Source: a virus. From it: a stretch of DNA of 64,000 nt. Shown here one piece after another: positions 34,296-60,713 of the stretch. Made by a program: the position numbers and the translations under genes. The stretch is taken from positions 96,331 through 160,330 of the IMG/VR virus record IMGVR_UViG_3300050139_000095. One strand, 5' to 3'. Each line of letters opens with the position of its first letter. Positions within the stretch are counted from its first letter, which is position 1. The notes beneath the pieces were generated by a model. It made no database searches, was not told the origin of the DNA, and saw only the letters and a program-made list of their open reading frames with translations.

Positions 34296-34937
34296 TTGAT
34301 GAAAAAGTTAATTGAGAAGGTGGATAGTTTCGGTATGCCATTCATGGAAGGTTACAAGCCACTGCGCGAAGAAAAGGAATCATTCCTGCCAAGTAAATTG
34401 GTCATGGTTGATCTTGAAATGACTGGCGTGGTTCCCGAGCGCGACGAGATAATCCAGATCGCAATGATCAAGCTTGTGCTCCAGGGCAACCAGTACGTCG
34501 AAGAAGGCGAGCCTCTGGAGATTTTTCCGCATACCAACGAAGAGCCGTCGAATGATTTCCACCGTAAGTTCCTGATGGACATCTTTGCCAAAGCTAGAGA
34601 ATCAACAATCGAGATCGCCGACTGCGGTCCACTGATTGAAGATTGGCTTGGCGACTGGAAGGGCAAAGCGATGCCGGTCGGCGACTGCGTGCCGCAGGAC
34701 ATGATGTTCCTCTATGCGAATGGGATTCTCACTCGCAATGACATCGTGAATGAAGGGCCAGTGCCGGGAACATTTCACTATGAGTTCTTTGAAATCGAGC
34801 CGCTGAAGTCTTTGTCGCGCACGAAGACCGGCAAGAAGGAATCTTTGGAGTTAGATAAAGGCATACACAACGCTCTCGTTGACTGCCGGAATCAAACCAT
34901 TGAACTGAACCATTACATCAGTGTGTTGCTCTCATAA
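34296..34937 (+). CDS. tagged DEDD (oligoribonuclease-like) 3'-5' exonuclease, 213 aa
   Basis: Tag in residues 4-18 (KLIEKVDSFGMPFME). Then LVMVDLEMTGVVPERDEIIQ (motif I, D-x-E), VGDCVPQDMMFLYANG (motif II region) and HNALVDCRNQ (motif III, H-x4-D), as in oligoribonuclease/DnaQ-type enzymes. These degrade short RNA or DNA from the 3' end. The tag precedes an otherwise ordinary exonuclease, so it is an added targeting element. Confidence 0.75.
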   Translation: MMKKLIEKVDSFGMPFMEGYKPLREEKESFLPSKLVMVDLEMTGVVPERDEIIQIAMIKLVLQGNQYVEEGEPLEIFPHTNEEPSNDFHRKFLMDIFAKARESTIEIADCGPLIEDWLGDWKGKAMPVGDCVPQDMMFLYANGILTRNDIVNEGPVPGTFHYEFFEIEPLKSLSRTKTGKKESLELDKGIHNALVDCRNQTIELNHYISVLLS

Positions 34938-42250: not shown

Positions 42251-44044
42251 GTGTCAGCGGAATCTAGGACGTTACAATTTATTCGTCAGATTGTGTCAGA
42301 GCCTTCGCAATACAGTTTGCCCATCGCTCCGCAAATCGCCAACTCATCGATCCTTGGATCATACGGTGTCGGCGGTTTTAGCTACCTGACAAATTCGTTC
42401 AACCAATCAATCGTTCAATACTTGGCAGTGGATCAGGATCTGATCACGCGCTTCATTGATTACGAAGATCAGGATGACAGTCCACTGATTGCATCGTCGC
42501 TGGATATTTATGCAGACGACAGCACGCAGACCAAGGACGCCGAGAACAAAACTCTCTGGGTTGAATCGGACGACGAGTACATCCGCGACGAACTAGACTC
42601 CATGCTCCACAAAAATTTGCTCACTGAAGAAACGATATGGCCGTTGGCGCGTACCCTTTGTAAGTACGGAAACTACTACGGCGAATTGATCGTGAAGAAA
42701 AATGAGGGCGTGATTGGGATGAATGTTCTCCCGCCGCCCGTCATGCGCCGCCTGGAGTTTGGCTCTGGACGCGAAGGTATCATCGGATTTATTTACGATC
42801 CCACTGGCCAATTCCGTATGACCACTTTTGAATTCATAGACTCATTGAAGTCGCGGATTCAAGATGGTGGAAAAATGGTTTCTGATTATTACGGTAAGCC
42901 GCCTGAGTCTATCGTGATGGAAGATTGGGAGATCGCCCACTTCCGTTTGCGCGGAAAGAAACCGCAATCGCTTTATGGATTCGGTATCGGTGAACCGGCA
43001 CGCTGGATCTTCAAGCGCCTTGTGCTCTTGGAAGATTCGATCATCATGCATCGGCTCACCCGCGCACCTTCGCGCTATGCTTTCTACGTGGATGTGTCGA
43101 ACATTCCGCCGAATGAAACCAGCGCCTATCTAAACAAAGTTCGTCAGGCCGTTAAAAAACAAAAGTATGTGAATCCGAACACCAATAAAATGGATGAGAA
43201 GTTCAACATGCTGACCACCATGGATGACTTTTTCTTGCCGGTGCGCGATGGCCGCGAGTCAACCAAGGTCGAATCTTTGGCCGGTCCTGTTTATGATGCC
43301 ATTGAAGACATCAAGTATTTCGAGAACAAATTGTTCGCGGCACTTAAAGTACCAAAGCCTTTCTTGACCTACGAAGAATCGACAGCCAAGACCAATCTCT
43401 CGGCGGAAGATTCGCGCTTCGCTCGAACCATCATGCGTATTCAGCGCGAGATGAAAAACGGCTATCGCAAAATCTGCAATGTCCATTTGGCCGCCAAAGG
43501 AATCAATCCTGATAAGGTGGAATTTGAACTGAAGATGACGACGCCCTCTGCGATCTTTGAACTCGCGCAGCTTGAGATCCGTGCGGCTGAAGTTGAACTG
43601 GCCGACAAGTTTGGCGCTTATGCTCCGCGCTCCTGGATCTTGCGCGAGATCATGCATTTCACCGATGAACAAATCGAAGAGATGGATGAGATGAAGCGCA
43701 AAGAAGAGATGAAGGGCGAGGCCGCAGAAGACGAAGAATCGGGCGGCGGCGGTGGTGGATCGTCGGGAGCCATTGATAAACTGGTCTCCAGACGTGATGA
43801 GCCTTCGTCGTCGAGCACCAGTGGATCTGCACCTTTAGCTGTTGCTGCCGGTGAGTCGAAGGGCTATCCGTCACGTAAACTAGGTTCAGATGAATTCTGG
43901 AATGGCGGAGTTAAGAAGAATTTGAGTACAATACTGGAACGACTTGAAGAAGCGAAAGCCACGGATAAAAAGTTTTCCAGACATTGGGATCGGACCACTG
44001 GACTATTAAACGAACTGAGGGACAACTTACGTCGTAAGAAATAA
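42251..44044 (+). CDS. portal protein (gp20-like), 597 aa
   Basis: GTG start two bases after the terminase stop. Segments such as YGNYYGELIVKKNEGVIGMN, RLRGKKPQSLYGFGIGEPAR and VESLAGPVYDAIEDIKYFEN are typical of T4-type portal proteins; C-terminal part has FELKMTTPSAIFELAQLEIR. The end is Gly/Ser-rich. Forms the dodecameric channel for DNA entry and tail attachment. Position after terminase and before the protease fits. Confidence 0.88.
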   Translation: MSAESRTLQFIRQIVSEPSQYSLPIAPQIANSSILGSYGVGGFSYLTNSFNQSIVQYLAVDQDLITRFIDYEDQDDSPLIASSLDIYADDSTQTKDAENKTLWVESDDEYIRDELDSMLHKNLLTEETIWPLARTLCKYGNYYGELIVKKNEGVIGMNVLPPPVMRRLEFGSGREGIIGFIYDPTGQFRMTTFEFIDSLKSRIQDGGKMVSDYYGKPPESIVMEDWEIAHFRLRGKKPQSLYGFGIGEPARWIFKRLVLLEDSIIMHRLTRAPSRYAFYVDVSNIPPNETSAYLNKVRQAVKKQKYVNPNTNKMDEKFNMLTTMDDFFLPVRDGRESTKVESLAGPVYDAIEDIKYFENKLFAALKVPKPFLTYEESTAKTNLSAEDSRFARTIMRIQREMKNGYRKICNVHLAAKGINPDKVEFELKMTTPSAIFELAQLEIRAAEVELADKFGAYAPRSWILREIMHFTDEQIEEMDEMKRKEEMKGEAAEDEESGGGGGGSSGAIDKLVSRRDEPSSSSTSGSAPLAVAAGESKGYPSRKLGSDEFWNGGVKKNLSTILERLEEAKATDKKFSRHWDRTTGLLNELRDNLRRKK

Positions 44045-44063: not shown

Positions 44064-44771
44064 ATGAAACAGATCATTGAGTCAAAGAGCCTTGAGAAAT
44101 TACTCGAAGGTTCCGATGAACAAAAGCTGCACAAGTTCGATCAGATCCTTTCTGAGTCGAAGATCAAACGCATTGCAACATTCGACAAGTACGTGATCGG
44201 CTTGAAAGAGTCAGGCGAGATCGTGCGCGTGGTGATCGTTGAAGGCAAAATCCTTTCGACGGCGATCATGCCCATCCAGTTGGCAGAAGAAAAAGCTGGA
44301 CCAACCGCAGTCCGTTCAATGGTCGAGTGGTGCATCGGCGGCGCTCTTCCCGATGAAGACCAGTTCGCAGAATTCTTGAATCAAATCTCGACCAAAGAGG
44401 CCAAGCTTTCCATCGCTGAGAAAAAGCTGGATAAGTTTTTGGCCGCAATGCCCAAGCCCAAAGAAGAGTGGGTGAAGACTTTTGGCGACAAAGTGGAATC
44501 TCTCCAATCAATTGGACAAGCTCTTGATCATTTATCCGCCATTGCACAAGTGGCGGAAAGAGTATCCGTTACGCAAAGTATGGGCAAAGCCATCTGTGAA
44601 CACGCGGCTGTCTTTGCACAACCGTTAGGCACAGTGGTAAGCACGTTGCGCGATGTTTTGGGTTCAGGCGACCAAGTTGGTGCCAACAAATTCATGGAAC
44701 AATTTGGTTCGCACTGGCAGAATCTTTGTATCACTGGTCAGTTCTTGAAGAATGTAGGCGAGGTCAAGTAG
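44064..44771 (+). CDS. hypothetical head-module protein, 235 aa
   Basis: ATG with ggaaagggaagtt upstream. Starts MKQIIESKSLEKLLEGSDEQ, resembling the tag K-Q-I-x-E-S but without the FG-P part. The remaining part is helical, including LSIAEKKLDKFLAAMPKPKE. Located between portal and the 2,222-aa protein, so it is likely a prohead core or packaged protein. Contains palindrome copy 8 within its coding sequence. Confidence 0.65.
   Translation: MKQIIESKSLEKLLEGSDEQKLHKFDQILSESKIKRIATFDKYVIGLKESGEIVRVVIVEGKILSTAIMPIQLAEEKAGPTAVRSMVEWCIGGALPDEDQFAEFLNQISTKEAKLSIAEKKLDKFLAAMPKPKEEWVKTFGDKVESLQSIGQALDHLSAIAQVAERVSVTQSMGKAICEHAAVFAQPLGTVVSTLRDVLGSGDQVGANKFMEQFGSHWQNLCITGQFLKNVGEVK
44503..44516. repeat. 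dispersed palindrome copy 8 (TCCAATCAATTGGA)
   Basis: Exact core, centre CA, inside the 235-aa head-module gene (codes for LQSIGQ). Intragenic location argues against a simple operator role. Confidence 0.75.
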
Positions 44772-44772: not shown

Positions 44773-47700
44773 GTGGAATTAACGGAGCGTTACAAAGTTG
44801 TGCGCTCCAAGCGTCCGAACTCAAAACTTCGGACGGCCAGGCGGCGTGCGTACCGGAAGAACAAGAGCAAGGCGAAGCGTGCGGCTAAACGCAATCGCAG
44901 GAAGCCAAGCTTCAAACGCCGGTTGAAACGCATCCGTCAGCTTCGTAAGCGGATGCACATCAAGCCCGGATCTCGCAGGAGATTACGGGTGGCAGACAGC
45001 GGTAGAGTCGGCAACATGAGTGAGGTTAGAGTGGATTTGGAAAATTCTTGGGATCAGGAAAAGATGCTCGATTCATATCTCACCACTATGTTGTGGTCTT
45101 CCGTTGGTGACAATGATGAGCCGCTCGATGATGTCCACAGCATCGAAGATATTTCCCCAGAGGCTTTAGCCAAATCAAAAAAAGACATCCATGAATTTTG
45201 CGTACAATCCGGTGATCTTTTGGACGGCCTTGATGAAGCACAAGTGGGCCATGACTTCTGGCTCACTCGCTGCGGCCACGGCGCTGGCTTTTGGGATGGC
45301 GATTATGAAAAAGAAGTCGGCGAAAAATTGACAGACATTTCAAAAAAATTCGGTAACGAAGATCCGTATGTTGGCGACGACAAAAAGATCCACATCATGG
45401 GTGAAAGCAAATTGGGGAGTGACATGAAAAACATCATCGCTGAAGACAAACTGAAGGCCCTCCAAGACAAGATCGCGAAGGCCCAGGCCGATGGTGATGA
45501 TGCTCTTGCGAAACAACTCAACTATGAGTTGAGCGACATGGTTAACAACGACAAGAAAGAAAAAGAACAATTGAGTCCCGAAGAAAAAGCGATCCTCGCA
45601 AACACCGGACTCGATACCGGAAAAACGGAATCCATTGCAAAATGGGGCAAGATGGTTGAGGCGCGTAAAGAAAAGCTTGCCGAAGCCAGTGATTCAAATT
45701 TCGGTGAAGAATTTGAATACACTCACGAGTTGGAAAAGGAATTGGAAAAGTACGGTTACTTGGATGACATCGAAGTTACCCGCGAAGAAGACCGCACCAA
45801 GTTCGCCAAACTGAAGTCGAAGATCGCAAAGGATCTGGCGCGTACACACAAACTTTTTTTGGATCAAACCCATGCCGATAAGTACATGGAAAATGCCAAG
45901 GATGCGGCCAAAGGGTTCGTAGAAGATTGCGCCAAGAAAGATGCTCCTGCACTCAAGGGGAAACTTGAAATTGAAGTTGGCGAACGCATCGGTGACAACT
46001 ATGTAGGTTCTGGCAACGGCGCTCTATATATTACGCTGAAGGCGGCTGGCGCAGAGGACGTTGAACTTGAGCCTGGTGCCCTTCACTACAGCGGATCTTC
46101 CGATGTGGTGAATGAAGATATGGGAAATTGGAATTGGGTATTCTGGTTGGCAAGCGACGATTCTCCTTTCCAAGACTCAAGCTGGGTTGATTCTTACGAG
46201 TACGACCGCATTGGTCAGGCTCTTGAACAATTCGCGCAGACTTTGAGCGAATCAGATTTACGCTTCGAGTTGAAGAACGCCTTCAATCAAATCGAGCGCG
46301 ACCTGCATTTGGCCGACCAAGATGTTGAAGAAGAGTCAGTTGATCTTGAGTTCAAGCATCCCAAGGGAGTTAACTCAAAGAAAAATGGCAAAGGTAAACC
46401 AGAGGCGGCTGATCCTGTTGATGAATTGAATCCTGCGCCAGAGACTAAAGTTCAAGAAGATACTGCCGGTGGCGAGAAGGTCATGATCGCGGCTGTTGAG
46501 CGCCTTGCTCAAGAGTGCAATGACTACCTTAAGAAAAAAGGCATCAAGGCCCCGAGCAACAAAATGTATAAGAACGACGTAATCAAGTTCACGCATCTGA
46601 GCTACGACGCGGCCATGACTCAAAAAGAAGACGGCAAAGATGTTCACTATCCTGAGATGGTCAGCTTCAATATTGAATCCCGCAACACCATGAAGCTTTC
46701 CTATCTGGCCGATGGCAGGATCATCCGCGAAGGCCAAGACTTGTCCAGCAAGGGCATGACCAAAGAACAACTGTTTGAAAAGGTCGCAGACGATGTGGCC
46801 GAGTGGTCAAACGCGGCAGAGCGCCGCAAGTCGGCCAAGACCGAAGATGAAGGCAGCAAGAAGGTTGGAGATTACGAGATCATCAACCACGGCGTTGAAG
46901 GTGATCAGTATTTCCAAGGTCATGGCATCTCTCATTCAAAATGGGATGATTGCGCAACGGGCATCGGCATGAGTGAGCGCGAAGCTTATGAAGACGCACT
47001 CGAACAGCTTGCTCAAAACGGTTGGGAAATTTCTCCGGAAATGGAAGCCGATGTTCAGAAAGCCAGCGATAAAGACATAGTTGGAGATCGTGAAGATAGT
47101 TACGTTTACATTTCTGTAGATGTAAAAGGTGAAGGACCTAAAGAGGCCACCGAGTCTGAAAAGCGTATCGCGAATCTTCGCGAGTCGATCAATGAATTTG
47201 AAAAAGCTTTGGAGCCGACAAGCGGCGCTATATATATTGAAGCGTTCAAAACTTCTGTACGAGTGGCCAAAAATCTTGTCGAGGCATATCAGAAGATTGT
47301 TGATGCCGCGCCCGTGAAACAGATCGAAGAGTCTGTGGATGATTTTAATATCCCTCTTCCTGGATTCGAGCATAACGAAATGCGCGACGACAACTTATCT
47401 GAGGATTTCTCAGAACTGTTGGGCGTAAAGAAACCAAAGACGATTGTCGAAGAGGCCAAGGTTCGTGAAGCCAAGTCAGACACCGAAGCTGCGAAGCTTG
47501 TGATCGAGGATCTGAAGAGCCTTCAGGAACAAAGCGCCAAGCTTGCGACAGCCGCATCAAAAGGTTTGCTCGACGAAGCTGAAGCCAAAAACTTCCTGCG
47601 TAAGACTCAGAAATATTTGGACGGAGCGATTGATGCTCTGACTGAAGATGAAGACGAAGATGATAAAGAATGGCCACTTCACATTGACCACATAAAAAAA

Positions 47701-50700
47701 GCCATGAAGATGGTTGAGAATCCTCGCGAGTGGTTAAGTGCCATGGCAGTGGATAAGCAATTGGCCAAGGCTCTTGAACTTTATCAAGAGCGCGGTGAGT
47801 ACGATGGAACACTACAAAGTGCCCGTGAATGCCTTGAACTTGCGGCGTTCGAGTTTACTGAATCTGATGATTCTGATCCAGACGATGACGGCGGCGGAGC
47901 GGAGCATGAAGAAGAGCATGATGAGCCAGAAGAAGGCGACATGTACTTCAGCGACTCTGGACCTTTAGGTTCAAAGACTTCGGTTTCGGTCGAAGGCAAA
48001 CACATAGGCGAGTTCAATTCTCAGGAAGAGGCTGAAAAAGCCGCTAGGGATTGGATGGTCAAGAATAATTACCATCCCAATATTTGGTACATCTCTGATC
48101 ATGGCAACGTCCATCCGTACACCTTAGAGACCGATGAATCGGTTGAAGAGGCTCGCGTTACCACTGACAAAGTGGCCAAGGCGTTTGCTCAAGGGTTGGC
48201 CAAAAAAGATGGCAACAACTCGACTGATGGAAGTATTTTTTCTCTCCACGGGAACAACATCGTAAAGCGCGATGAGAATGGCGACATCTTTATTACTGAC
48301 GCCGGATGGCCCACGCCGACGACTCGTGAGCGCATCAATGGTGTGCTCCAGGCTTTAGATATTGATGCTTCCGTCTGGAAGGTTAAGGGCAAGCAATCAA
48401 TTCAAATTGGCCGCGATAAAAAACCGTGGGATGGCGCGTGGACGAAGGTTGGGAATCAATCTCCGAACGGCGGCGGCGAAGACGAATCAGTTCAGGAAAA
48501 GCTGGACAATCCTTTACCCGCAGCGAATCGCAAGATGACTCATAAGGACGTGTTGAAAGTTCGCGACCTAAAAGCGAAGCTTGCCGGTATGGATCGCCAA
48601 GATCCCGAGTACGACAAGACTCAACTTTTGATCAACAAGATCCTTGGCTATACCGCCGTGACCGAAAAGTATCTTGGCTTTGACAAATTGAAGAGCAAGA
48701 TCGCGCACGAGAAAAATCCGCCAAAAGATCCTGGCGCAGTGGCCGCAAGCATTGGCCGCGAGAAGTACGGCAAGGAAAAATTCCAGAAGGCCGCCGCTGC
48801 CGGTAAAAAATTGGGTGAGGATGCAGTCAGCGAGGACGAAGGCGAAGACGTTGGCGGAGAGATTAATATCCAGATTTACGCTGACATCGTAGAGAAGGGT
48901 TCGATCCATTCTGGCGATAAGGTTGTGCTTGAGGAAACTACTGCGCGTGACAAGATCAGCGAAGTGTCAAACTTGTTGGCTGAAAAGCTTGGCGACATGT
49001 TTGAACTCCAACAAAAGGTTCAGTGGTTCCCCGGCTCTGACGGCAAGGACGGACTCTACACTTCGCAGAGCATGTTCATTGAACAGGAAGACTTTAAAAA
49101 GTTGGCAGAATTCTTTCCTGAATCAGACGCCGCAGAATTTTCTGAAGCAAAAGAAGTTGAGGTCATGTTCGTTCTTGGAATCTCTGATCCCAAGAAAGAA
49201 CTCACTGGCCGCGAGTTGAAGAGCGACGGCAAGGAAGAGGGCTTGAACAGCCCCATGCAAGATGTCGAAGAGGCGGTCAAGGTCATCATGAAGACCAAGC
49301 CTTTGCGCGATGAAGCGATTCGCATGGTCGAGAGCCGCGCCAAAGTGGTTCACTACGATGCATTCGTCATGAAGCACAGCCCTGTACTCATCAATGCAAA
49401 AATTAATATTGGTTCAGTTTATGGAGAAGAACTTCAGCGCGAGTTGAAGGTGGCTGTTGTTGAATCAAAAAAATCGCTCAAAGAAGATTCTATGAGCGGC
49501 CAGGTTTTCAATCAGGACAATAAGTTCTATGTCAAAGATCCAAAGAGCGGTGGCTACTATCCTATGAAGGATCAGAATGGAGCCAGTAAGCTTGTTGGAG
49601 CCATGGTCAACTTCAATGTTGATCAGGACAAGAATGCCAATGTGGTTGAAGACGGCGGCGCTGGAATTGGCGTGGCCGCGATTGGCGCTGGTCCCATGGG
49701 CGGAAAAATGCTCAGGGATCGCAAAAAAAATTATGAAAAGCTTTTGGGAAAAGACGACAAGAAGGAAGACATCTACGGCAACAACGATCCTGAAGTTGGC
49801 GCTGGAACAATCGGCGGAAAAAAAGATCCGAAGCCAGTTAAGGAAGATTACAAATTTAGCCCTGGAGAAAAAGAGTTCTTCGACAAGCATTCTATTGGTG
49901 ACATGACTGGCGCTATGACCGACGAGGCCAAGGAAGCTTTGTGCGTTGATTTGATCAAAGCCGGTTTTCAAGAGACCGCAGATCACATCAAGGCAATGTC
50001 GAAAGACGAATTTGAAGACTTCTTGATGAATGAAATTTATGACGGATGTGAAGAGTCGGAGATGCGTTCGTTCGATCACGCTGGCAACGGTGGTCATCCT
50101 GAAACAGTTGAGTCATCGGGCAAGAAAGTTTCTCCCGAAGACGAAAAGAAGATCGAAGCTTTTGCGAAATCTCAGAAGGCCGTGAAGTACATCGCCATTC
50201 CTTCACAGAACAAAGTGGACATTTACCACGATAATGTTCATGCGACCGAATATGAACTCGATTCTGTGTTGAGTGGATCTCCCAAGAAGGCCAAGTCTGG
50301 CGAAGGTAAGACCAATGGCGGAGAAAAAGTTGAAGCCAAAGATGATGTAAAAGCCATTTTGGTCGCCTTAAATTCAACCGGCAGCATGGGTGGTAAATAT
50401 CCTATCGGCAACAAAGAGTTGACCGTTAAGGTCAAGGCACTCGAAGCCGCAGGAAAAATTAAATACGATTCGATGAAGGACAAATGGACCAGAGCCAATG
50501 ACAAATCTTCCTTCGGCGAAGCCAAAGGTGCGAAGTGGATCATACAAGATTGGGCTGGCAACGTATGCTTCGGCGGAAAAGATTTTAATAGTTTCGATGA
50601 TGCTGAAGAGTGGTTGTCAGTAAAGCTTGGAGATGAGTACGAGACTGATCGCGAAGAGTATGAAATCGTTAAAGGCGGTTCACGCGATGCGAATTATCTA

Positions 50701-51441
50701 GATCCAAAAGATCCTCGCGGCGGAAAAAAAGTTAAAGAAGGATCAACCAAAAAGGCCGGTAAAAAACTTACCGAGCGCGAAGGCCAAGGATTGATTGAAA
50801 ATCATCCCGAGTGGGCAGAGATGGTGAAGGCCGAAGTACAAGAGGCTGGAGAAGACATCAGTCGCAAGTACGAAACTTATTCTGATTCCGTTGAAGAAGT
50901 AGAGCACAAGTCACGCGACGGATTCATTTCGTCTAATGACGGTGGATACCAGTGGAAAGGTTTCGCTGATACTTCCAGCCTGATGGGATCTGGCCGTGGC
51001 CATTCAATGCCGAAGAAGGCCGTCGCAGCTTTGGAAAAAGATTATGAGCAAAATAATCAGTACGCGCTTGACGCCTTCAAAGAAGAGCACGCAGAAGAGA
51101 TCGCAGGAATCCCTGAAGATAAATTGAATTACCATGACCTCTACGACATGGGAAAAGGTGATCTCGCTGAAAAGTTGAGTGAGTTAGAAAATACTCACAA
51201 CAGCGATGAGCAATCCACTTTCATGTTCATGGTGATGGTGATGTTCAATGCAGGGGAAGACGGCGGCGAGCATAGCATGACCGTTCAAGCCGTGATCAAT
51301 TGGGAAGCGCCCTATCACCGCAACAAGAGCCAGTTCGAGGATTACAAGCAAGTTGAATTTGATTTCAAAGATGAGACTGATCTTGGAAAGAAACTTCACG
51401 ACGCTATGGAACAGTGCCTCAAGCACATTAACGCGAGGTAG
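44773..51441 (+). CDS. very large multi-domain head-module protein, 2222 aa
   Basis: GTG 44773, one base after the upstream stop. Residues 1-75 are extremely basic (LRTARRRAYRKNKSKAKRAA). Then follow many small phage-type domains: HDFWLTRCGHGAGFWDGDY with LTDISKKFGNEDPYVGDDKK (about 159-200), a LYITLKAAGAEDVEL block (about 415), a SIFSLHGNNIVKRD block (about 1155), and long acidic linkers. The tag KQIEESVDDFNIP occurs at about 849-861. Not similar to any known T4 core protein. Position between portal and protease suggests a prohead core or packaged protein, possibly cut into several products by the protease. Confidence 0.7.
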   Translation: MELTERYKVVRSKRPNSKLRTARRRAYRKNKSKAKRAAKRNRRKPSFKRRLKRIRQLRKRMHIKPGSRRRLRVADSGRVGNMSEVRVDLENSWDQEKMLDSYLTTMLWSSVGDNDEPLDDVHSIEDISPEALAKSKKDIHEFCVQSGDLLDGLDEAQVGHDFWLTRCGHGAGFWDGDYEKEVGEKLTDISKKFGNEDPYVGDDKKIHIMGESKLGSDMKNIIAEDKLKALQDKIAKAQADGDDALAKQLNYELSDMVNNDKKEKEQLSPEEKAILANTGLDTGKTESIAKWGKMVEARKEKLAEASDSNFGEEFEYTHELEKELEKYGYLDDIEVTREEDRTKFAKLKSKIAKDLARTHKLFLDQTHADKYMENAKDAAKGFVEDCAKKDAPALKGKLEIEVGERIGDNYVGSGNGALYITLKAAGAEDVELEPGALHYSGSSDVVNEDMGNWNWVFWLASDDSPFQDSSWVDSYEYDRIGQALEQFAQTLSESDLRFELKNAFNQIERDLHLADQDVEEESVDLEFKHPKGVNSKKNGKGKPEAADPVDELNPAPETKVQEDTAGGEKVMIAAVERLAQECNDYLKKKGIKAPSNKMYKNDVIKFTHLSYDAAMTQKEDGKDVHYPEMVSFNIESRNTMKLSYLADGRIIREGQDLSSKGMTKEQLFEKVADDVAEWSNAAERRKSAKTEDEGSKKVGDYEIINHGVEGDQYFQGHGISHSKWDDCATGIGMSEREAYEDALEQLAQNGWEISPEMEADVQKASDKDIVGDREDSYVYISVDVKGEGPKEATESEKRIANLRESINEFEKALEPTSGAIYIEAFKTSVRVAKNLVEAYQKIVDAAPVKQIEESVDDFNIPLPGFEHNEMRDDNLSEDFSELLGVKKPKTIVEEAKVREAKSDTEAAKLVIEDLKSLQEQSAKLATAASKGLLDEAEAKNFLRKTQKYLDGAIDALTEDEDEDDKEWPLHIDHIKKAMKMVENPREWLSAMAVDKQLAKALELYQERGEYDGTLQSARECLELAAFEFTESDDSDPDDDGGGAEHEEEHDEPEEGDMYFSDSGPLGSKTSVSVEGKHIGEFNSQEEAEKAARDWMVKNNYHPNIWYISDHGNVHPYTLETDESVEEARVTTDKVAKAFAQGLAKKDGNNSTDGSIFSLHGNNIVKRDENGDIFITDAGWPTPTTRERINGVLQALDIDASVWKVKGKQSIQIGRDKKPWDGAWTKVGNQSPNGGGEDESVQEKLDNPLPAANRKMTHKDVLKVRDLKAKLAGMDRQDPEYDKTQLLINKILGYTAVTEKYLGFDKLKSKIAHEKNPPKDPGAVAASIGREKYGKEKFQKAAAAGKKLGEDAVSEDEGEDVGGEINIQIYADIVEKGSIHSGDKVVLEETTARDKISEVSNLLAEKLGDMFELQQKVQWFPGSDGKDGLYTSQSMFIEQEDFKKLAEFFPESDAAEFSEAKEVEVMFVLGISDPKKELTGRELKSDGKEEGLNSPMQDVEEAVKVIMKTKPLRDEAIRMVESRAKVVHYDAFVMKHSPVLINAKINIGSVYGEELQRELKVAVVESKKSLKEDSMSGQVFNQDNKFYVKDPKSGGYYPMKDQNGASKLVGAMVNFNVDQDKNANVVEDGGAGIGVAAIGAGPMGGKMLRDRKKNYEKLLGKDDKKEDIYGNNDPEVGAGTIGGKKDPKPVKEDYKFSPGEKEFFDKHSIGDMTGAMTDEAKEALCVDLIKAGFQETADHIKAMSKDEFEDFLMNEIYDGCEESEMRSFDHAGNGGHPETVESSGKKVSPEDEKKIEAFAKSQKAVKYIAIPSQNKVDIYHDNVHATEYELDSVLSGSPKKAKSGEGKTNGGEKVEAKDDVKAILVALNSTGSMGGKYPIGNKELTVKVKALEAAGKIKYDSMKDKWTRANDKSSFGEAKGAKWIIQDWAGNVCFGGKDFNSFDDAEEWLSVKLGDEYETDREEYEIVKGGSRDANYLDPKDPRGGKKVKEGSTKKAGKKLTEREGQGLIENHPEWAEMVKAEVQEAGEDISRKYETYSDSVEEVEHKSRDGFISSNDGGYQWKGFADTSSLMGSGRGHSMPKKAVAALEKDYEQNNQYALDAFKEEHAEEIAGIPEDKLNYHDLYDMGKGDLAEKLSELENTHNSDEQSTFMFMVMVMFNAGEDGGEHSMTVQAVINWEAPYHRNKSQFEDYKQVEFDFKDETDLGKKLHDAMEQCLKHINAR

Positions 51442-51443
51442 TT

Positions 51444-52397
51444 GTGGAAGAGTCGGCGAGTAAGGAATTGGTTTCATTCAACGGAGATTTACTCCGTGCC
51501 CTTGAACAAGGGATGAAATCAATTGGCAAAGATGTTCGTGTGCTGAAGTCGAACTACACTTCCGATGGTATTGAAGCCACGTTGCTCTTCAAAGAGCCAC
51601 GCGGCACAGTCCGTCGTTACAAGATGAAAATAACCAAGCAATACGGCGTGACGCCAGACTTGCCAGAGGATGTGAAAATGGACTCAGAAGTTAAGGAAGC
51701 CACCAAAGAGAACACACCATTTGAACCGGAAGCAATGGCCGAAGATTTGGCCAAGTCTCTTGGCGAAGAGTTTAAGGAAGAGATTTCTGAATCACTTGAT
51801 ATTTCCAAAGGCCGTTACTCTGACTTCGGATCGGCTGGTGAGTTCACTGCCGATGGCCAGAAATACAATGTCATCGAGAGTGAAGACGAAGCCGAGCGCA
51901 TTGCCAAAGATATTGTGAAGCAAGACCTGGAGAGCGAGCCTTCTCTTTTCAGCCCAGACTTCCTTCAACAGCATCTATATATATCTCCCACTGACCGTCG
52001 CATCATTGCCGGTGAAGAGGCGGATGCCCTGGCTGAAGGCCAGAGCGATGAGGATTTTGTTGAAGCCAATGGCACCAAGGAACAGTGGGAAGCCGAAGAG
52101 GCCGATGGAGATACAGAGGGCGCACAAAAACTCGTCGATGCTGCCAAAGAAGAATGGGTTTCTGACCAGTCAGATAAAATCGAAAAGGAACTTGAAGATC
52201 CAATTGAGTATTTCATCAACGACCATGGCATCTATGGTGATGTTGGAGAATTGATGAAAGCCAATTTTATCCAGGTAGACATCGACGAAGCTACGGACGA
52301 AGCGGTTCGCATTGATGGCTGGGCACATTTTCTTTCGCACTACGACGGGAACTACGAAACCACCGCTGGCGGTTTAGTTTACTTTAGGGAAGACTAG
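51444..52397 (+). CDS. acidic head-module protein with phage-specific domain, 317 aa
   Basis: GTG start two bases after the large gene. Residues about 85-190 are acidic and helical; DRRIIAGEEADALAEGQSDE and PIEYFINDHGIYGDVGELMK (about 185-285), ending IDGWAHFLSHYDG, match a domain seen in several large phage proteins of unknown function. It may be related to the domains inside the 2,222-aa protein. Likely a core or packaged protein. Confidence 0.65.
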   Translation: MEESASKELVSFNGDLLRALEQGMKSIGKDVRVLKSNYTSDGIEATLLFKEPRGTVRRYKMKITKQYGVTPDLPEDVKMDSEVKEATKENTPFEPEAMAEDLAKSLGEEFKEEISESLDISKGRYSDFGSAGEFTADGQKYNVIESEDEAERIAKDIVKQDLESEPSLFSPDFLQQHLYISPTDRRIIAGEEADALAEGQSDEDFVEANGTKEQWEAEEADGDTEGAQKLVDAAKEEWVSDQSDKIEKELEDPIEYFINDHGIYGDVGELMKANFIQVDIDEATDEAVRIDGWAHFLSHYDGNYETTAGGLVYFRED

Positions 52398-52401: not shown

Positions 52402-52821
52402 ATGAGAACTAAGGAGTTGAAGATAAATGGTGATCCAGTCGAGGCTGTGCTCATGGCCGGTGGACCTGGCTTTAAGATTTATCACGCTTCCGATAGTCTA
52501 GTTGTGGTCAAGGGAAGAAAGCAGATCGTCTTCAAAGAGGATGATCCGGACTTTAAGACAGTAATTCGATATGTGAATCTTAGGTATCAACCGGCAGGGG
52601 AGCACGAGAAGGTGAAGGCAGACTTTGATGCGTTGATCAAAATAGCTCCGGAAGTCTCGGAAGCCGCCAACGATGGATCGCCAAAGAGATACAAGGACGC
52701 TATCGATAAAGTTGAGAAGAAACTTTACAGCCGGATGCGGCGGGGTAAAATAAAGTCGAAGCTTGGGAAAAAGGGCAAGAGCAAGATTCCTGGCTTTGGA
52801 TACTTTTTTAAGAGAGACTAG
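52402..52821 (+). CDS. hypothetical head-module protein, 139 aa
   Basis: ATG with ctagctcc upstream. N-terminal beta-rich part (GDPVEAVLMAGGPGFKIYHA), acidic middle, very basic end (RMRRGKIKSKLGKKGKSKIP). The basic tail could contact DNA or be a cleaved core peptide. Directly ahead of the protease gene, as T4 gp67/68-type core genes are, but no similarity was recognised. Confidence 0.6.
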   Translation: MRTKELKINGDPVEAVLMAGGPGFKIYHASDSLVVVKGRKQIVFKEDDPDFKTVIRYVNLRYQPAGEHEKVKADFDALIKIAPEVSEAANDGSPKRYKDAIDKVEKKLYSRMRRGKIKSKLGKKGKSKIPGFGYFFKRD

Positions 52822-52826: not shown

Positions 52827-54365
52827 ATGGCTGACAAAAGGTTACTAATCGATAGACAGGGTACGGTCGCGATGACGCTGGCAGAAGATGCCGGTGGACG
52901 AATGATTGCCCGTGGTGAATTTGGTAAGGCCGATGTCCCCACCGAAAACAAGCGCGTGTATCCTCGCAAAATCTGGGAATCACAGATCGCTCGCGTCACA
53001 CAAGAAATGAACGAAGGCAAAATCCTTGGAGAACTCGATCACCCGGCTGACGGCAAGACCTCAGTCAAACGCGCATCGCATTTGATGCGCCGGTTGTGGA
53101 TCGAAGATGATGGCCGTGTCATGGGTGAGGCAGTGATCCTCGACAATGATTACGGTAAACAGTTGAAGTCGATTTTTGATGCCGGTGGGCAAGTTGGAGT
53201 TTCGAGCCGTGGAATGGGTTCCACGCGCATGTCTGAAGGTGGCATTGAAATCGTTGAGGACGACTATAGTTATATGACTCACGATTTCGTTGCAGATCCC
53301 GCAGTGAAGTCCAGCTACCCGAAGGTGACAGTCGAACAAGTCGCTGCCACCGAGAGCATTGAAAAGAAAGTTAATCCGGTTGTTGAGAGCAATCCGGCAA
53401 TTCTAAAGGAGAATGTCATGGAAAAGATGCTGACTGAAGAACAGGTTGCCAAACAACTCAATGAAGCAACGGAAGCACTCAAAAAAACTTTTGAAGATAG
53501 CCTGACCGAAAAGGCCGCCCTCATGCGCGAGTCGATTGAGAAAAGCGTTCGCGCTGAACTCATGACCGCTCCTGAACTGGTTGGAGCGAAAGCTTCGCTG
53601 GAACAGATCGTTGCTGCCGTGAAACCTTTCATCGTGAAAGAAGACAGGGACGAAGCCATGGTCGCTCTCCAAAAGGAGAACGCCGAGTTGAAGGTCCAGT
53701 TGGAAGGCAAAGTGAAAGAGATCGCCGAGATGGAAAAGGCCGCTGTTGAAATCGTTGAAGGTTCCAAGCGCATGGGCCTGAGCATTTTCTTTGAACGCGC
53801 AATGTCCAAAGATGAAGACCGCGTTGAGATCAGCGAAATGATCGGCGATCTGAAACAGTACGCCGACGAGAAGTCTTTGGAAGAGGCCATCAAAAAGGCC
53901 AAAGACAAAGCGGCTGAAAAGAAGAAGGCCGCCTTGGAGAAAAAGAAAATGAAGGAAGACGCCGACGCTAAGACAAACGCCAAGATCAAGGCTTTGGAAG
54001 AGCAAAACGCGAAAACAAATAGAGCGTTGGAAGAATCTTTGAGCAAGGAAAAATCACTCGCCGCGAAGATTTATTTGGAAGAACGAATTAAAGGCAATCC
54101 CAACGCTCGCCTCATTCGTAAACTCGCCGAAGGTGTTGTTGAAAAAAGAAAGATCGACAACATTGTAAAGGAGAATGCTGTTGCGGTGGGCAACGGAACT
54201 GTTTATAATTCTGTTAATGAAAGACTCGCACGCTTGGATGCAGTGAGAGCAGATAAAGACAAAAAGATCGTTGAAGATCAATTGGCAGAGGCGAATGGAA
54301 AGTCGAAGTCAAAAGAAGTCACGGTCGAAGATGTCGATGCTGAAATTGCGCAAGTAACGGGCTAA
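52827..54365 (+). CDS. prohead protease with C-terminal scaffold domain, 512 aa
   Basis: ATG with ctaggggat upstream. The N-terminal about 180 residues match the S80/gp21-type prohead protease: LGELDHPADG has the conserved His, and VGVSSRGMGS has the Ser. The C-terminal 315 residues are almost all helical with many Lys/Glu/Ala (AEKKKAALEKKKMKEDADAK), a typical scaffolding domain. A strong internal start at 53418 allows separate production of the scaffold. Such proteases mature the capsid and cleave core proteins. Confidence 0.88.
   Translation: MADKRLLIDRQGTVAMTLAEDAGGRMIARGEFGKADVPTENKRVYPRKIWESQIARVTQEMNEGKILGELDHPADGKTSVKRASHLMRRLWIEDDGRVMGEAVILDNDYGKQLKSIFDAGGQVGVSSRGMGSTRMSEGGIEIVEDDYSYMTHDFVADPAVKSSYPKVTVEQVAATESIEKKVNPVVESNPAILKENVMEKMLTEEQVAKQLNEATEALKKTFEDSLTEKAALMRESIEKSVRAELMTAPELVGAKASLEQIVAAVKPFIVKEDRDEAMVALQKENAELKVQLEGKVKEIAEMEKAAVEIVEGSKRMGLSIFFERAMSKDEDRVEISEMIGDLKQYADEKSLEEAIKKAKDKAAEKKKAALEKKKMKEDADAKTNAKIKALEEQNAKTNRALEESLSKEKSLAAKIYLEERIKGNPNARLIRKLAEGVVEKRKIDNIVKENAVAVGNGTVYNSVNERLARLDAVRADKDKKIVEDQLAEANGKSKSKEVTVEDVDAEIAQVTG
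53418..54365 (+). CDS. nested scaffold protein from internal start, 315 aa
   Basis: In-frame ATG 53418 has AAAGGAG at 53405-53411, six bases before it, better than the site ahead of many genes here. The product begins MEKMLTEEQVAKQLNEATEA and covers only the helical scaffold part of the protease gene. This repeats the lambda C/Nu3 arrangement, in which protease and scaffold share a C-terminus. Inference from sequence; no direct proof of expression. Confidence 0.6.
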   Translation: MEKMLTEEQVAKQLNEATEALKKTFEDSLTEKAALMRESIEKSVRAELMTAPELVGAKASLEQIVAAVKPFIVKEDRDEAMVALQKENAELKVQLEGKVKEIAEMEKAAVEIVEGSKRMGLSIFFERAMSKDEDRVEISEMIGDLKQYADEKSLEEAIKKAKDKAAEKKKAALEKKKMKEDADAKTNAKIKALEEQNAKTNRALEESLSKEKSLAAKIYLEERIKGNPNARLIRKLAEGVVEKRKIDNIVKENAVAVGNGTVYNSVNERLARLDAVRADKDKKIVEDQLAEANGKSKSKEVTVEDVDAEIAQVTG

Positions 54366-54391: not shown

Positions 54392-55903
54392 ATGGAACAA
54401 CGTAATCTTCAGGAAATGAAGAATGATCTCTCCGCTGATAGCTTTGTAAAAAGCCCCCAGCGGCGAGCACTGATCGAGCGATGGCAGAAATGGATTCCGA
54501 AGACAGTCGGCAACGACTATCAGAAGTATTGCCTCGCAACACTGTTTGAAAATCAACTCTCGGAGTTGAAACAGTTCAAAGAAAAACATTTGATGGGTGA
54601 AGACACCACTACGGCCAACACCGCGCCGTTCATCAAGTACACTTTCCCCTTGCTCCGCCGCGTTTGGCCAGCATTGATTGCTCCGGAAATTGTATCAGTC
54701 CAACCGATGACCGCTCCCGTTGGCGCGATCTTCTACTTCGAGTTGAAGTATGGACAAGCTAAAGGCTCCGTAGCCAATGGCGACAAATTAGTGGCGAATT
54801 TCAATCGCTATTATTCTTCACAATATATTGACGGTGAAGCCAATGTTTCGGTGAACGGAACGGCACAGGCATTCACTCTCGCTTACATCCCGGTTCTCCC
54901 GAACACGGTGAAGATCACTACCAGCTTGTCTGGCATTGGTCCCTTCGTGGACAACGGTTCTGGTTTGTTGAGCGGTCCTGGTTTGGCTTCGGGCACTGTC
55001 AACTACGTCACTGGCGCGGTTGCATTGGTGTTCTCGGCGAATCCCGGCGCTGGTGCTGCAATGACCAGCTTTTATCAGTACAACAACGAGGCGAACTCTT
55101 TAGTTCCCACGGTCTTCATCGACATCGCGCTTGTCAGCGTGACCGCACGAAGCCGCAAATTGAAAGCACTCTGGAGTTCAGAGGCCGCTGACGATTTGAA
55201 GGCTCTCCACGGTATCGACGCTGAACAAGAATTGGTGTCTGGTGTGGGTTCGGAATTGGCTCTTGAGATCGACCGCGAAATCATCGAAGACTTGCGCCTT
55301 GGCGCGAGCGGTGGAACTGCGGCTTACGATCTGACCACTCCCGCAGGTTTCAAACAACGCGACACCATCGTTGCGATGTTGACTCAACTCACGCTCTTGT
55401 CGAACCAAATCGGCAAGAACACTTTGCGCGGCCCCGCAAATTGGATCGTGATGGGTTATGAATTGGCCGCTTACATCGAGCAACTTGGTCTTGATGGTTT
55501 CTTCCGCCCTGTGTTCGCCGGAAACGCCGAAGCACTGTCAGCGGCTGAAGCTCCTCAGACTTGGGGCGTGATGAAGATGGGAACTCTCCAACAACGCTGG
55601 ACCTGTTACAAAGATCCTTATCTGACCACTGGTCTGCCCAGTTCCGCTGTGGCAATCATGGGTTATAAGGGTTCGAGTTTCGTGGATGCCGGTTATGTGT
55701 GGGCACCATACGTCCCGTTGCAAGTCACTGCAACCTTCCTCGATCCGAACGATTTCCGTTTCCGCAAAGGCTTGCGTACTCGTTACGCCAAGTTGATGGC
55801 TCGCACGGAGTTCTTCGGCAAGATGAATGTCACAGGCATCAACGCCCTGACCAGCACTGTGTCCTCAACGGGACCTGTCGCTGCCGGTGTGTTGAACTTC
55901 TAA
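54392..55903 (+). CDS. major capsid protein (gp23-like), 503 aa
   Basis: Strong aaggagagggacaca ribosome-binding site. Sequence such as PFIKYTFPLLRRVWPALIAP, then TARSRKLKALWSSEAADDLK, ALHGIDAEQELVSGVGSELA and LEIDREII match the T4 gp23 HK97-fold major capsid family. It may be N-terminally processed by the prohead protease. Followed by a terminator, in line with high expression. Confidence 0.92.
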   Translation: MEQRNLQEMKNDLSADSFVKSPQRRALIERWQKWIPKTVGNDYQKYCLATLFENQLSELKQFKEKHLMGEDTTTANTAPFIKYTFPLLRRVWPALIAPEIVSVQPMTAPVGAIFYFELKYGQAKGSVANGDKLVANFNRYYSSQYIDGEANVSVNGTAQAFTLAYIPVLPNTVKITTSLSGIGPFVDNGSGLLSGPGLASGTVNYVTGAVALVFSANPGAGAAMTSFYQYNNEANSLVPTVFIDIALVSVTARSRKLKALWSSEAADDLKALHGIDAEQELVSGVGSELALEIDREIIEDLRLGASGGTAAYDLTTPAGFKQRDTIVAMLTQLTLLSNQIGKNTLRGPANWIVMGYELAAYIEQLGLDGFFRPVFAGNAEALSAAEAPQTWGVMKMGTLQQRWTCYKDPYLTTGLPSSAVAIMGYKGSSFVDAGYVWAPYVPLQVTATFLDPNDFRFRKGLRTRYAKLMARTEFFGKMNVTGINALTSTVSSTGPVAAGVLNF

Positions 55904-57434: not shown

Positions 57435-58456
57435 TGGATTTTGAAAAGACACTCGGACTTGATCCGAACACAAAAGATGCCCGTCATAATGGTCTTAAAA
57501 AGGACAGTTATGATGAGTCCAAGATCACAACCGACCTAAAGGCGGCTGTTGAGGATTTTACGGTGAATCCAGACGCCCAGCGCACGCCGCCGTTGCCGGA
57601 GTTCGATTATTTATTTACCAATTGGCCGGACAAGAATCCGTCAGAGAAACCTTTCAAGGCCAAACCCTCCAATCAATTGGACAAAAATATTTCCAGCGCA
57701 CCGGCCAAGAAAGTCGCCAAACAAGAGTCGGAACTGACTCCTGAAGAACAGGCTGTGCTCAAGCGTTGGGAAGAGATGAAGGTCGCTCCTATCGGAGAGG
57801 GCGCGGTGAAGAACCGCTTTGAGAACTCTATGCGCAAGCTGAATAAAAAGCCGTGGCAGGAGTGGGGCAAGCTTGAATGGAAGATTGCTGGCCGCGTGAC
57901 GAAGCATGAGACGGTCACGGATGAACCTGAAGAAGAGAAGAGACCGCAGCAAATATTTTCGATCAAACCTCTTTTGGCGAAGGTTGCACCGGAGAAGTCC
58001 GAGTCAATCAATCGATCCAAGAGTAAGTCCTTGGTCGAGATGCAGTTTCTCGACTTCCTTTTCAAGAAGGCCATGACCACGGCGCACGCGAAGCCTGAAA
58101 AGGAAGAGGGATCAAATTCGGTCTACACTCGGATCAATGACATAGTGTCCAAGACCTTGAAGCCCTTTGGCCTAAAGGCTACCTCGCCCAAGAAGTACGA
58201 TGACGCCGATGTGATGGGGATCAATTACCAAGTGAAGATCGGCAAAGAGTCTTACGCAATTCATACATATCTCCTCAAGGGCAATAAGGTATTCATGTGT
58301 TCCATTTGGGATAAAGAAGAAAACCGTTTATTATTGACGTTGAGTGAGGGATATTTAAGGCAATACTACTATCTTGTCGGAATCGGTAAAGAGCGGCTAA
58401 GATCATGGATGGAGCAAACACATGGAAAGTCCGAATCAGGAAAAAATCACGGGTAG
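57434..58456 (+). CDS. hypothetical head-module protein, 340 aa
   Basis: ATG 57434 overlaps the upstream stop (TAATG). Charged N-terminal half, C-terminal domain (about 215-325) with globular pattern (VYTRINDIVSKTLKPFGLKA; YQVKIGKESYAIHTYLLKGN). Palindrome copy 9 lies inside. No family recognised. It overlaps the next gene by 35 bases. Confidence 0.65.
   Translation: MDFEKTLGLDPNTKDARHNGLKKDSYDESKITTDLKAAVEDFTVNPDAQRTPPLPEFDYLFTNWPDKNPSEKPFKAKPSNQLDKNISSAPAKKVAKQESELTPEEQAVLKRWEEMKVAPIGEGAVKNRFENSMRKLNKKPWQEWGKLEWKIAGRVTKHETVTDEPEEEKRPQQIFSIKPLLAKVAPEKSESINRSKSKSLVEMQFLDFLFKKAMTTAHAKPEKEEGSNSVYTRINDIVSKTLKPFGLKATSPKKYDDADVMGINYQVKIGKESYAIHTYLLKGNKVFMCSIWDKEENRLLLTLSEGYLRQYYYLVGIGKERLRSWMEQTHGKSESGKNHG
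57668..57681. repeat. dispersed palindrome copy 9 (TCCAATCAATTGGA)
   Basis: Exact core, centre CA, inside the 340-aa gene (codes for SNQLD). Confidence 0.75.
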
Positions 58457-60713
58457 ACTCTGCGCCATCGGTCGGGCTGAGTACACCAATCTAATCGGCG
58501 GGGCCGGTTACAAGTTCATCGAGAACGGTGGATTCAAGTGGGAACTCGATCCTGCCGACATTGATCGTTACGGCATCTCCATGGACGCACTTCTGGATTG
58601 TGTTGAACAACTGGAAAAAATGGGCACGATTGAACAGATCAAGGCCAGCGAGCATTTCAAGGGTAGCGACGGCTGGCGTAATGCTGGTATAGTGATTCAG
58701 TCGAAGCTTGATCCGCGAGTTGTTTGTAGTGTTGAATTGGTTGGTAATGAATACGACAAATCAGAAGTTAGTATGCGATGGTTTGTTGATCTCGAAAAAG
58801 AAAGCAAGGCCGCCGTTGGAGCACCAGAGCACACGGCAGATCCTGAAGAACTCAAAGCAGTCGAAAGGGCACAAGAAATGAGCAAAGATAAATCGTCCGA
58901 CAAAAAAGATCAGAAGGAATCAATTGATCACCTTTTCGACCTGCCGATCCGTTCCACGGCGAAGACCGGCGTGAAACAGATTAAAGAGTCGGTCGATGGT
59001 TGGGGATTGCCCACTCTTGGTGAGAGCGAGTTGGAAGACGGTCACGGCGGTCATGTTGGCGACCAAACTATTGGAGAAAAACCAAAGCCAGAACCTGGAG
59101 CCGGAAAAGAGTATGGCGAGAAAGACGCCAACGGAAATATCGTAAAGCCCGGAACGATTGCAAAAGATCCTGAACTGAATCATGTCGAAGGCAACGGCGG
59201 TGCAGATCCTACTCTTGAACTCGATCTTCCTGCGAATAAAATCAAACCCGGAACGATTGCAAAAGATCCGGAGTTGAATCACATGGAAGAGGCCAAGGAC
59301 AAGGAAGCCAAGGCCAAGGCTGAAAAAGAAAAAGCTGAAAAAGAGAAAGCCGACAAAGCTAAAAAATTGAAAGAAGATGCTGGTGGCGAAAAAGAAACCA
59401 AGCATGTTCATCCCGCTGACCGCAAGGCTGGCGACGGAAAATCAACTGGCGATGTTCCTGAACTCGACAGCGACAATGATGGCCACATCACTCAGGAAAA
59501 AAAACTGAAGGAAACTGGCGAACCTGATCAGGACTACGACAAGGAAGCACTCGACAAAGTTGTTGAGGCTTTGAAGAACGACGGCTTCCAGGCCAGCCAT
59601 CGCGAGTTCGATAAATACCAAGGTATTTATTTGAAGGTCAGCAAGAATGGCAAGACCGAGAAGTTTTGGATGCGCGACGTGGACCACCTTAAAGAAGGCG
59701 GAGTCATCATCCACTTCCAGCCCGAGTCTGGAAAAGAAGAGCAATTTGTTTCCTGCGAAGTTTCTGACGAAGCTTTCATTGGCGACCTTGTTGAGTTCAT
59801 GGAAACGGGCAAGACCGCCAACGATGAAGAACCGGCAGATGGTTCAAAAGATGAGCCGAAAAAGGAAGAGAGCATCATTATCCACAAGGGTTCTGAAGCC
59901 AACAAATCCGCAAGCGGCATTCATTTGATCGGCGTGAAGTCGGAAGCCATCAAGGAAGCCAAAGAGTACGCGGTGAAAACCGGCGCGAAGCACATCTACA
60001 TTCACCGCGATGGTCCGAAGTTCGGCGCAAAAACCGAATCACGTTCGTACATCGCCAAGGGTGGACGGATGCTTCAGGTCGAGGACAATGATGTTTACGT
60101 CGGCGTGAAAGCCTTGGAAACTCCCAAGGACAAAGCCGACGATGGCAAGAACCGCGAAGAAGTTGATGGTGCTGGAAAAGTGAAAGACAAAAACGACGGC
60201 GCTGACAACAAAAGCCCTGAGCACATGGACGGTGGCGGCCAATCGCAAGTTGGCGGCACCGACAAAGAAGATGCTTTGGCCGCTGCGAAAATTAAACCTG
60301 GCGCTCCCGAAGCCGCACCGAAGTTGATGGCCGAGCGCAAAAAAATGCGTGAAGCTGCAATGAAGCGCCGCGAAGAGCGCAAAGCGTCCGATGGAAAGGT
60401 TGTCGAGTCACAAAAGGCACCTGGAAAAAAGCTTAGTGAGGGATACGACCACCCTCAAAAAGTGATGGACGGATTGAAGCGTCACATGGACGAAGCGCAT
60501 CGTGCAGTTCGCAAAGGTCACGAAATGACTGAGTGGGCGCATAAAAAGATGCATGAGTGCATGGAATCAATGCCGCATCCTTTGGCCGCCGAACTTGGCA
60601 AGCATCATGAAAAAATGAATGACGCCAAGATCAAGTTAAACGATGCGAAGCGTAGCGTGTCCGAAGTCTGCGAAGACATCGACCGCTTGCACCGCCACAG
60701 TAAACGCAAGTAA
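58422..60713 (+). CDS. large multi-segment head-module protein with tag, 763 aa
   Basis: ATG 58422 with ggatggagcaaacac upstream. Residues 1-140 are a folded domain (VELVGNEYDKSEVSMRWFVD). At 166-175 ESIDHLFDLP and at 184-201 VKQIKESVDGWGLPTLGE are two tag-like motifs. Two copies of KPGTIAKDPELNH (about 245 and 280) show a duplicated segment. DSDNDGHITQEK near residue 348 resembles an EF-hand loop. The rest is acidic linkers and a C-terminal helical region (KRHMDEAHRAVRKGHEMTEW). Probably a packaged or core protein. Confidence 0.65.
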   Translation: MESPNQEKITGRLCAIGRAEYTNLIGGAGYKFIENGGFKWELDPADIDRYGISMDALLDCVEQLEKMGTIEQIKASEHFKGSDGWRNAGIVIQSKLDPRVVCSVELVGNEYDKSEVSMRWFVDLEKESKAAVGAPEHTADPEELKAVERAQEMSKDKSSDKKDQKESIDHLFDLPIRSTAKTGVKQIKESVDGWGLPTLGESELEDGHGGHVGDQTIGEKPKPEPGAGKEYGEKDANGNIVKPGTIAKDPELNHVEGNGGADPTLELDLPANKIKPGTIAKDPELNHMEEAKDKEAKAKAEKEKAEKEKADKAKKLKEDAGGEKETKHVHPADRKAGDGKSTGDVPELDSDNDGHITQEKKLKETGEPDQDYDKEALDKVVEALKNDGFQASHREFDKYQGIYLKVSKNGKTEKFWMRDVDHLKEGGVIIHFQPESGKEEQFVSCEVSDEAFIGDLVEFMETGKTANDEEPADGSKDEPKKEESIIIHKGSEANKSASGIHLIGVKSEAIKEAKEYAVKTGAKHIYIHRDGPKFGAKTESRSYIAKGGRMLQVEDNDVYVGVKALETPKDKADDGKNREEVDGAGKVKDKNDGADNKSPEHMDGGGQSQVGGTDKEDALAAAKIKPGAPEAAPKLMAERKKMREAAMKRREERKASDGKVVESQKAPGKKLSEGYDHPQKVMDGLKRHMDEAHRAVRKGHEMTEWAHKKMHECMESMPHPLAAELGKHHEKMNDAKIKLNDAKRSVSEVCEDIDRLHRHSKRK

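Follow-up and report, generated by a model that had tools for sequence, protein, structure and literature searches.

The head operon and its long gene

The stretch considered here (the window) comprises 64,000 nucleotides, positions 96,331 to 160,330, of the 160,330-base IMG/VR virus record IMGVR_UViG_3300050139_000095, and attention is drawn to a gene of 2,222 amino acids (aa) that lies among its head genes and consists largely of a string of exchangeable domains. From 40197 the head genes are all on one strand, in the order terminase-like gene, portal, g235, the 2,222-aa gene, g317, g139, S77 protease and gp23 capsid (Table 1). The gene at 40197 is called terminase-like by its position, Pfam and PHROGs having given no match. 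The 2,222-aa gene is one open reading frame (ORF) with a GTG start, beginning one base past the stop of g235, and g317 begins two bases past its stop. A preliminary description from the letters of the DNA had placed the long ORF between portal and protease genes, and the Pfam matches of the two flanking genes confirm this.

The same description had this slot normally occupied by small genes in T4-like phages, and so it is: Prochlorococcus phage P-SSM4 has one 112-aa gene there, in Listeria phage LIS04 two small ORFs adjoin the portal gene, and in distant relatives (loci L019, L021, L023, L025, L030, L033 and L036) there are two genes of ~285 and ~305 aa. Relatives were gathered from IMG/VR with the capsid, portal and protease proteins as queries, and the portal-protease slot was read in each. 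Expanded slots were found with single long genes (2,431 aa in L015, 1,791 in L020, 1,216 in L016 and 1,127 in L022) or with the content divided (1,075 and 948 aa in L017; 795, cut by the contig end, 496 and 1,392 aa in L018). The comparison with related phages that had been proposed as a check thus yielded split versions, with two or three adjacent genes in place of one. The position between portal and protease is kept in every expanded relative, and the order, number and splitting of the modules vary even with respect to a relative whose portal and capsid proteins are ~90% identical. At the DNA level, the window and L015 match continuously at ~77% as far as the end of the basic part at 45025 and at ~76% from 52179, with scattered pieces between.

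Some peculiarities of the relatives' head genes deserve mention in their own right. The capsid gene of the closest relative (L015:11062-12638) reads in two frames, probably owing to a frameshift in the contig. In L003:7312-9972, and also in L018:8633-11293, the protease gene is interrupted by ~380 aa resembling an intein (between residues 73 and 457), and terminase and portal genes are split by large in-frame inserts, probably inteins, which are frequent among the clade's head genes (L019:933-5426; L022:394-3561 and 3569-5794; L026:3046-7173; L032:2274-5780 and 5783-7978; L037:2737-7134).

Constant parts and exchangeable modules

Iterated profiles built from the window and L015 served to delimit the modules, and profile comparison with relatives resolved at least 13 modules recurring elsewhere, together with two constant parts. 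Databases match only two of the domains, phrog_1915 at residues 95-206 (expectation value, E, 2e-19) and phrog_554/Kyano_Gp96 at ~1141-1204 (E 8e-8 to 1e-4); the earlier impression of separate phage domains strung together is thereby substantiated. Two further impressions hold in part. The start, described as histone-like, is indeed basic (residues 4-84 have a net charge of +33), but no histone family matched it, and the linkers are acidic in some cases, e.g. residues 958-1050, but not in all. The lysine/arginine-rich (K/R-rich) start opens the gene in five relatives (L015, L016, L017, L020 and L022); in the short forms L019 and L021 its counterpart, judged by K/R-rich similarity and synteny, belongs to the second gene.

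With the constant parts written as basic and core, gene boundaries as a slash, and further segments as dots, the window reads basic-A-B-C-D-E-core-G-H-I-J-K-L-..-P-Q / S, L015 basic-B-C-E-core-..-G-I-..-J-K-..-L-..-A-D-S, L020 basic-core-P-A-D-H-..-S, L017 basic-core-A-C / E-..-ArdA and S, and L018 C-core-L / Q / E-..-ArdA and S. Module A is accordingly the second element in the window and the third in L017 and lies close to the end in L015, and module D shifts from residue 568 in the window to 2109 in L015.

The AlphaFold model of module A has a high-confidence fold (predicted local distance difference test, pLDDT, 96) which in a PDB fold search had no match to solved structures. NCBIfam gave nothing for ten modules and PADLOC nothing for the window's proteins, and Pfam reported no metallopeptidase or LPD domain in the proteins scanned.

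Table 1. Positions of the slot genes, modules, tagged genes and flanking head genes in the window
Feature	Position	Strand	Match or occurrence
Tagged GNAT-domain protein (MRLKEDLDLFGMPLVE, N-terminal)	32458..33846	+
Tagged 151-aa protein (MVKRLTENIDSFGMPLFE, N-terminal)	33840..34295	+
Tagged oligoribonuclease-like exonuclease (MKKLIEKVDSFGMPFME, N-terminal)	34299..34937	+	PDB oligoribonucleases, E 1.5e-10
Portal protein (T4 gp20 type), upstream boundary	42251..44044	+	PF07230, E 8e-64
g235, first slot gene, in short and expanded forms	44064..44771	+	68% to L011 homologue; weak homologue in L016
2,222-aa modular polyprotein gene	44773..51441	+
Constant part 1, K/R-rich N-terminal stretch, hxE-flanked in expanded homologues	44782..45024	+	hidden Markov model in 8 loci
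Module A (phrog_1915, GHDFWLTRxGHGAGFWDG)	45064..45378	+
Module B	45409..45672	+	also L015, in a different context
Module C (EDMGNWNW)	45682..46293	+	L015, L017, L018
Module D	46474..46839	+	L015, L020, elsewhere in order
Module E (YFQGHG)	46858..47085	+	five loci; stand-alone 92-106-aa genes in L128-L130
Constant part 2, helical core domain with LSEDFSELLGVKKP (residues 820-957)	47230..47643	+	seven loci including the window
Imperfect internal tag variant in the core, EESVDDFNIPLPGFE / EESVDDFNIPLPGFEH (residues ~852-867)	47326..47373	+
Module G (ISDHGN)	47923..48141	+	L015; also L050, L108
Module H (TTRERLNG; phrog_554/Kyano_Gp96)	48145..48468	+	also L020
Module I (GREKYGKEKFQ)	48559..48807	+	L015
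Module J	48829..49227	+	L015
Module K	49237..49470	+	L015
Module L	49483..49656	+	L015, L018
Segments M, N, O	49693..50520	+	M partly in common with L015
Module P (DWAGN)	50524..50742	+	L020, different position
Module Q	50761..51435	+	part of a separate 496-aa gene in L018/L003
g317 (317 aa); residues 108-316 are module S	51444..52397	+
g139, small gene with basic tail, precedes protease	52402..52821	+
Prohead protease S77 (gp21 type), scaffold-like C-terminal half	52827..54365	+	PF03420, E 3e-18; phrog_207, E 3e-43
Major capsid protein gp23	54392..55903	+	PF07068, E 3e-64
Second modular protein past the capsid gene; tag-like KESVDGWGLPTLGE	58422..60713	+	modules in common with the slot

The end of the string: module S and ArdA

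That the next gene, g317, carries a further module of the same kind was rightly noticed: in L015 the equivalent of its C-terminal ~210 aa forms the fused end of the long protein, and module S likewise closes the polyprotein in L020. At the g317 position relatives have ArdA plus S. ArdA (PF07275, E 8e-19 to 2e-24) is present in four of them, L005, L017, L018 and L022, always adjoining the C-terminus as the last module of the string, and the profile of the region matches the ArdA structure 2w82 (E 4e-4). The same place holds module S (model pLDDT 89) in the window, L015 and L020, the last part of S aligning with the ArdA-bearing relatives. An ArdA in the window's own g317 was considered and rejected, there being neither a PF07275 match nor a fold match despite that C-terminal alignment. 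The inclusion of this antirestriction protein in the relatives' string suggests a packed kit that would enter the host with the DNA.

A short tag on otherwise unrelated genes

The motif hxE-x-[VL]-D-x-FG[MLI]P-h-x-E (h, hydrophobic) is found, mostly N-terminally, on genes that are otherwise unrelated, among them three consecutive ones in the window (32458-34937). DNA patterns for FG[ML]P and [VLI][DN]xFGhP were run over whole records and gave 18 matches in six of the seven clade records (none in G004), against one for the reversed pattern, and no match in two short-form outgroups (355 kilobases, kb, together). Most matches fall within residues 6-21 of the reading frame, with a few C-terminal or internal. 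Glutamate stands five residues before the F in 17 of 23 tags and three after the P in 15 of 22, both positions lying outside the search patterns, and the residue directly after the P is L, I, V, F or another. In homologous Nudix proteins from two phages the tag is at opposite ends. Across all of IMG/VR the strict pattern occurs in nine stretches, two in the L017 phage and the rest in contexts unlike the tag. For the tagged 33840-34295 protein a ParB-like identity, hinted at solely by the string VDGRHRIRAA, was dropped, Pfam, PHROGs and PDB offering no support.

Modules outside the slot

Module A is mostly stand-alone (46 of the 67 ORFs examined are of 200 aa or less), and both A and E exist as solo genes, as is typical of the repeatedly accreted domains of polyvalent proteins, to which we return below. 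Slot modules recur in the second modular protein past the capsid gene and in its homologues (E down to 2e-36). Similarly, a string module of L018 reappears as a domain of a 372-aa tagged protein in the L022 phage (E 1e-10). The whole 2,222-aa protein found nothing in IMG/VR, and modules E, G, P and S found nothing at 1e-3 by tblastn in GenBank phages, so that a wide distribution is shown for no module but A and, through three small genes, E.

Module A also lies within very long proteins of unrelated phages (L050, L092, L107, L114, L117, L052 and L047), several of which have a repeated linker of their own. In L117:1-9096 (record G009, 153189-163789) there is one protein of 1,656 aa, with an [FY]A[KND]GG-type linker roughly every 100 aa, and another of at least 1,164 aa; over 170 kb the linker pattern has 20 matches, all of them on the same strand of a 10.6-kb stretch. 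The large-phage proteins L107:4243-8679, L114:4657-9471, L092:3934-9768 and L052:4588-8940 have a conserved N-terminal ~230 aa followed by variable modules, with recurrent K[TQ]A / KxADTADNPxNE linkers. For these unrelated phages PHROGs gave no structural context, and a gp23 search was uninformative, no control genome having matched. Tentatively, and with the odds somewhat against it, several unrelated tailed-phage lineages may package modular polyproteins in which a lineage-specific repeated peptide joins exchangeable domains and would also mark or release cargo; the peptide would here be hxE-x-VD-x-FG[MLI]P-hxE and in G009 [FY]A[KND]GG or similar, and a given cargo domain could be carried either singly, with the tag, or within a string.

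Proposed cutting by the prohead protease

Cutting of the long chain is likely in view of the neighbouring genes, since gp21 reduces T4 core proteins to fragments (PMC5694885). By that analogy a gp21-type protease probably acts here too; this is less strongly indicated than packaging, the counts of cleavage sites not exceeding those of control proteins. What there is in favour is position-specific: in the alignment hxE is conserved immediately on either side of the basic part and downstream of the core, and the tag, too, has hxE built in. In the capsid alignment residues 69-70 are invariably GE, within [ML][LI]GE, which by analogy to T4 gp23 is a likely maturation site. Counts of [LI]xE were also tried as proof of cutting and rejected, the control proteins showing an equal excess.

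Interpretation and alternatives

Probably, though with real room for doubt, the 2,222-aa gene encodes a modular string of virion cargo of the polyvalent type, packaged via the core and probably cut by the neighbouring protease. A T4-type prohead-core protein with a basic N-terminus and a helical core, whose presumed ancestral short form had ~240-300 aa, would have gained a changing set of small domains that it carries into the prohead. After assembly the gp21-type protease would probably cut at hxE sites flanking the basic part and the core, with further cuts possible in the linkers; the released domains would enter the host with the DNA and could act at once on defences or host functions. Other cargo would take the same route as single proteins bearing the short leader hxE-x-[VL]-D-x-FG[MLI]P-h-x-E. 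The earlier suggestion of one chain cut by the prohead protease to deliver several products fares accordingly: cargo of multiple products is well supported by modules that permute, split, fuse and occur as solo genes, in the second modular protein and in a tagged single protein, and by ArdA in relatives; the cutting is much less so.

A number of points weigh on the other side. In the long proteins [LIM]xE and [LIVM]xE[ASG] are no more enriched than in controls, and among the site motifs ESV alone stands out (15 in linkers with 3.5 expected, as against 23 with 15 expected in controls), in a count that includes homologous linkers. The FG-P tag, of which an internal copy had been reported in the 2,222-aa protein, is a genuine motif on the three tagged genes, but that copy is imperfect. 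The basic part is tied to the short form by K/R-rich sequence and synteny, and no enzyme or antirestriction domain is recognised in the window's own string, module S giving no fold match to ArdA and module A none in the PDB. Finally, packaging in the virion is inferred from the genes.

That the protein is packaged uncut, like uncut polyvalent proteins, and stays one giant component of the inner head or core in which the modules work jointly or are structural, is unlikely yet the most serious of the competing explanations. It accords with the lack of a surplus of protease sites, with a basic N-terminus that could bind DNA, and with the many-domain polyvalent proteins of phages, which are predicted to be packaged (PMC5512222). 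However, one chain is not required, because relatives have the same modules split into two or three genes or solo; the prohead protease adjoins, hxE is conserved at the edges of the constant parts, and the fragments to which T4 core proteins are reduced (PMC5694885) also speak for cutting.

It is improbable that the modules are mere filler enlarging the core, to be degraded and lost with no function in the host. The constant parts do resemble a core protein, and T4 gp22, gp67 and gp68 are degraded (PMC5694885), but the modules are conserved domains found solo in many phages, the relatives' slot includes ArdA, and the tagged singles include Nudix, GNAT and oligoribonuclease-like enzymes. A shade harder still to credit is a recombination hot spot at which small late genes were fused by chance and are translated with no common delivery. 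Module turnover is high, and segments N and O were found in no locus besides the window among those examined; against this, frames stay open over 1,100-2,400 aa in several phages, the first and last parts are fixed, and the architecture recurs in the unrelated record G009, there with a repeated linker peculiar to it. An assembly or sequencing artefact fusing separate genes, the outcome named beforehand as fatal and conceivable for a single metagenomic record, is excluded for practical purposes because independent contigs carry equivalent fusions, and the ORF is real.

Relation to known systems

The closest anatomical parallel to the cargo string favoured here is provided by the polyvalent proteins of phages and conjugative elements (Iyer et al. 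2017, PMC5512222), here built on a T4-type core gene with a tag system. As in those, there are many domains per polypeptide, a late or structural gene context (between portal and protease) and domains that also occur solo. ArdA, GNAT, DdrB-ParB, MPTase and LPD are among their known domains, and their packaging in the capsid and injection are predicted (PMC5512222); of the known domains, ArdA is in four relatives' strings and not in the window's. The differences are that the string is based on a T4-type core protein next to an S77 protease, that most modules have no assigned function and that cargo encoded apart from it bears a lineage-specific tag.

After injection, the internal proteins (Ips) of T4 inhibit restriction enzymes (PMC3012670, PMC12373910). 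Ip1-Ip3 are unrelated proteins with just a short N-terminal capsid-targeting leader in common, as the tagged single genes here have just the tag, of which the 2,222-aa protein has an imperfect internal copy. The likeness is by description: the leader here is FG[MLI]P-based and may be C-terminal or internal, and much of the cargo is concatenated in one gene. T4 gp67 and gp68, likened at the level of gene position and basic composition, are also prohead core genes near the protease gene with a basic core-like part; the gene here is ~4-8 times the short-form length, with cargo modules inserted and appended. DarA and DdrB of P1, again likened by description, are multi-domain, proteolytically processed and packaged, DarA countering restriction (PMC5512222), in another phage type and with another processing enzyme. 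In SPN3US and phiKZ, head proteins are cut after xxE by the prohead protease and ejected, but there long propeptides are removed from single proteins, and module shuffling is not described in the sections of PMC5694885 and PMC10052503 drawn on here. A search of the open-access literature on phage polyproteins with capsid-targeting sequences turned up no account of the present arrangement, most subscription papers falling outside that scope.

Other genes in the window

Elsewhere in the window, 37834-39150 encodes a TubZ/FtsZ-like tubulin (PF00091, PF22453), a type present in phages that build filaments or a nucleus-like compartment. An L,D-transpeptidase (YkuD_2) at 35308-36066 is unusual for the neighbourhood of a phage head region. 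Adjoining the head genes, 62349-63802 has an RmlD-like dTDP-sugar reductase followed by an RmlC-like protein (assigned by eye, RmlD alone having been tested). A 1,442-aa ORF at 25461-29789, with no Pfam assignment or FG-P tag, could be a modular or a tail protein.

Significance

Should the proposed reading of the 2,222-aa gene as a cargo string be correct, the portal-protease slot would be a readable list of the proteins delivered to the host along with the phage DNA, and the tag, like the T4 leader before it, would find further such proteins from nothing but their sequence. No function is assigned to about 87% of PHROGs families, and a direct route to anti-defence genes among such families would be opened. 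A T4-type head would then be able to deliver its cargo strung on a single modular chain, in place of separate internal proteins or in addition to them.
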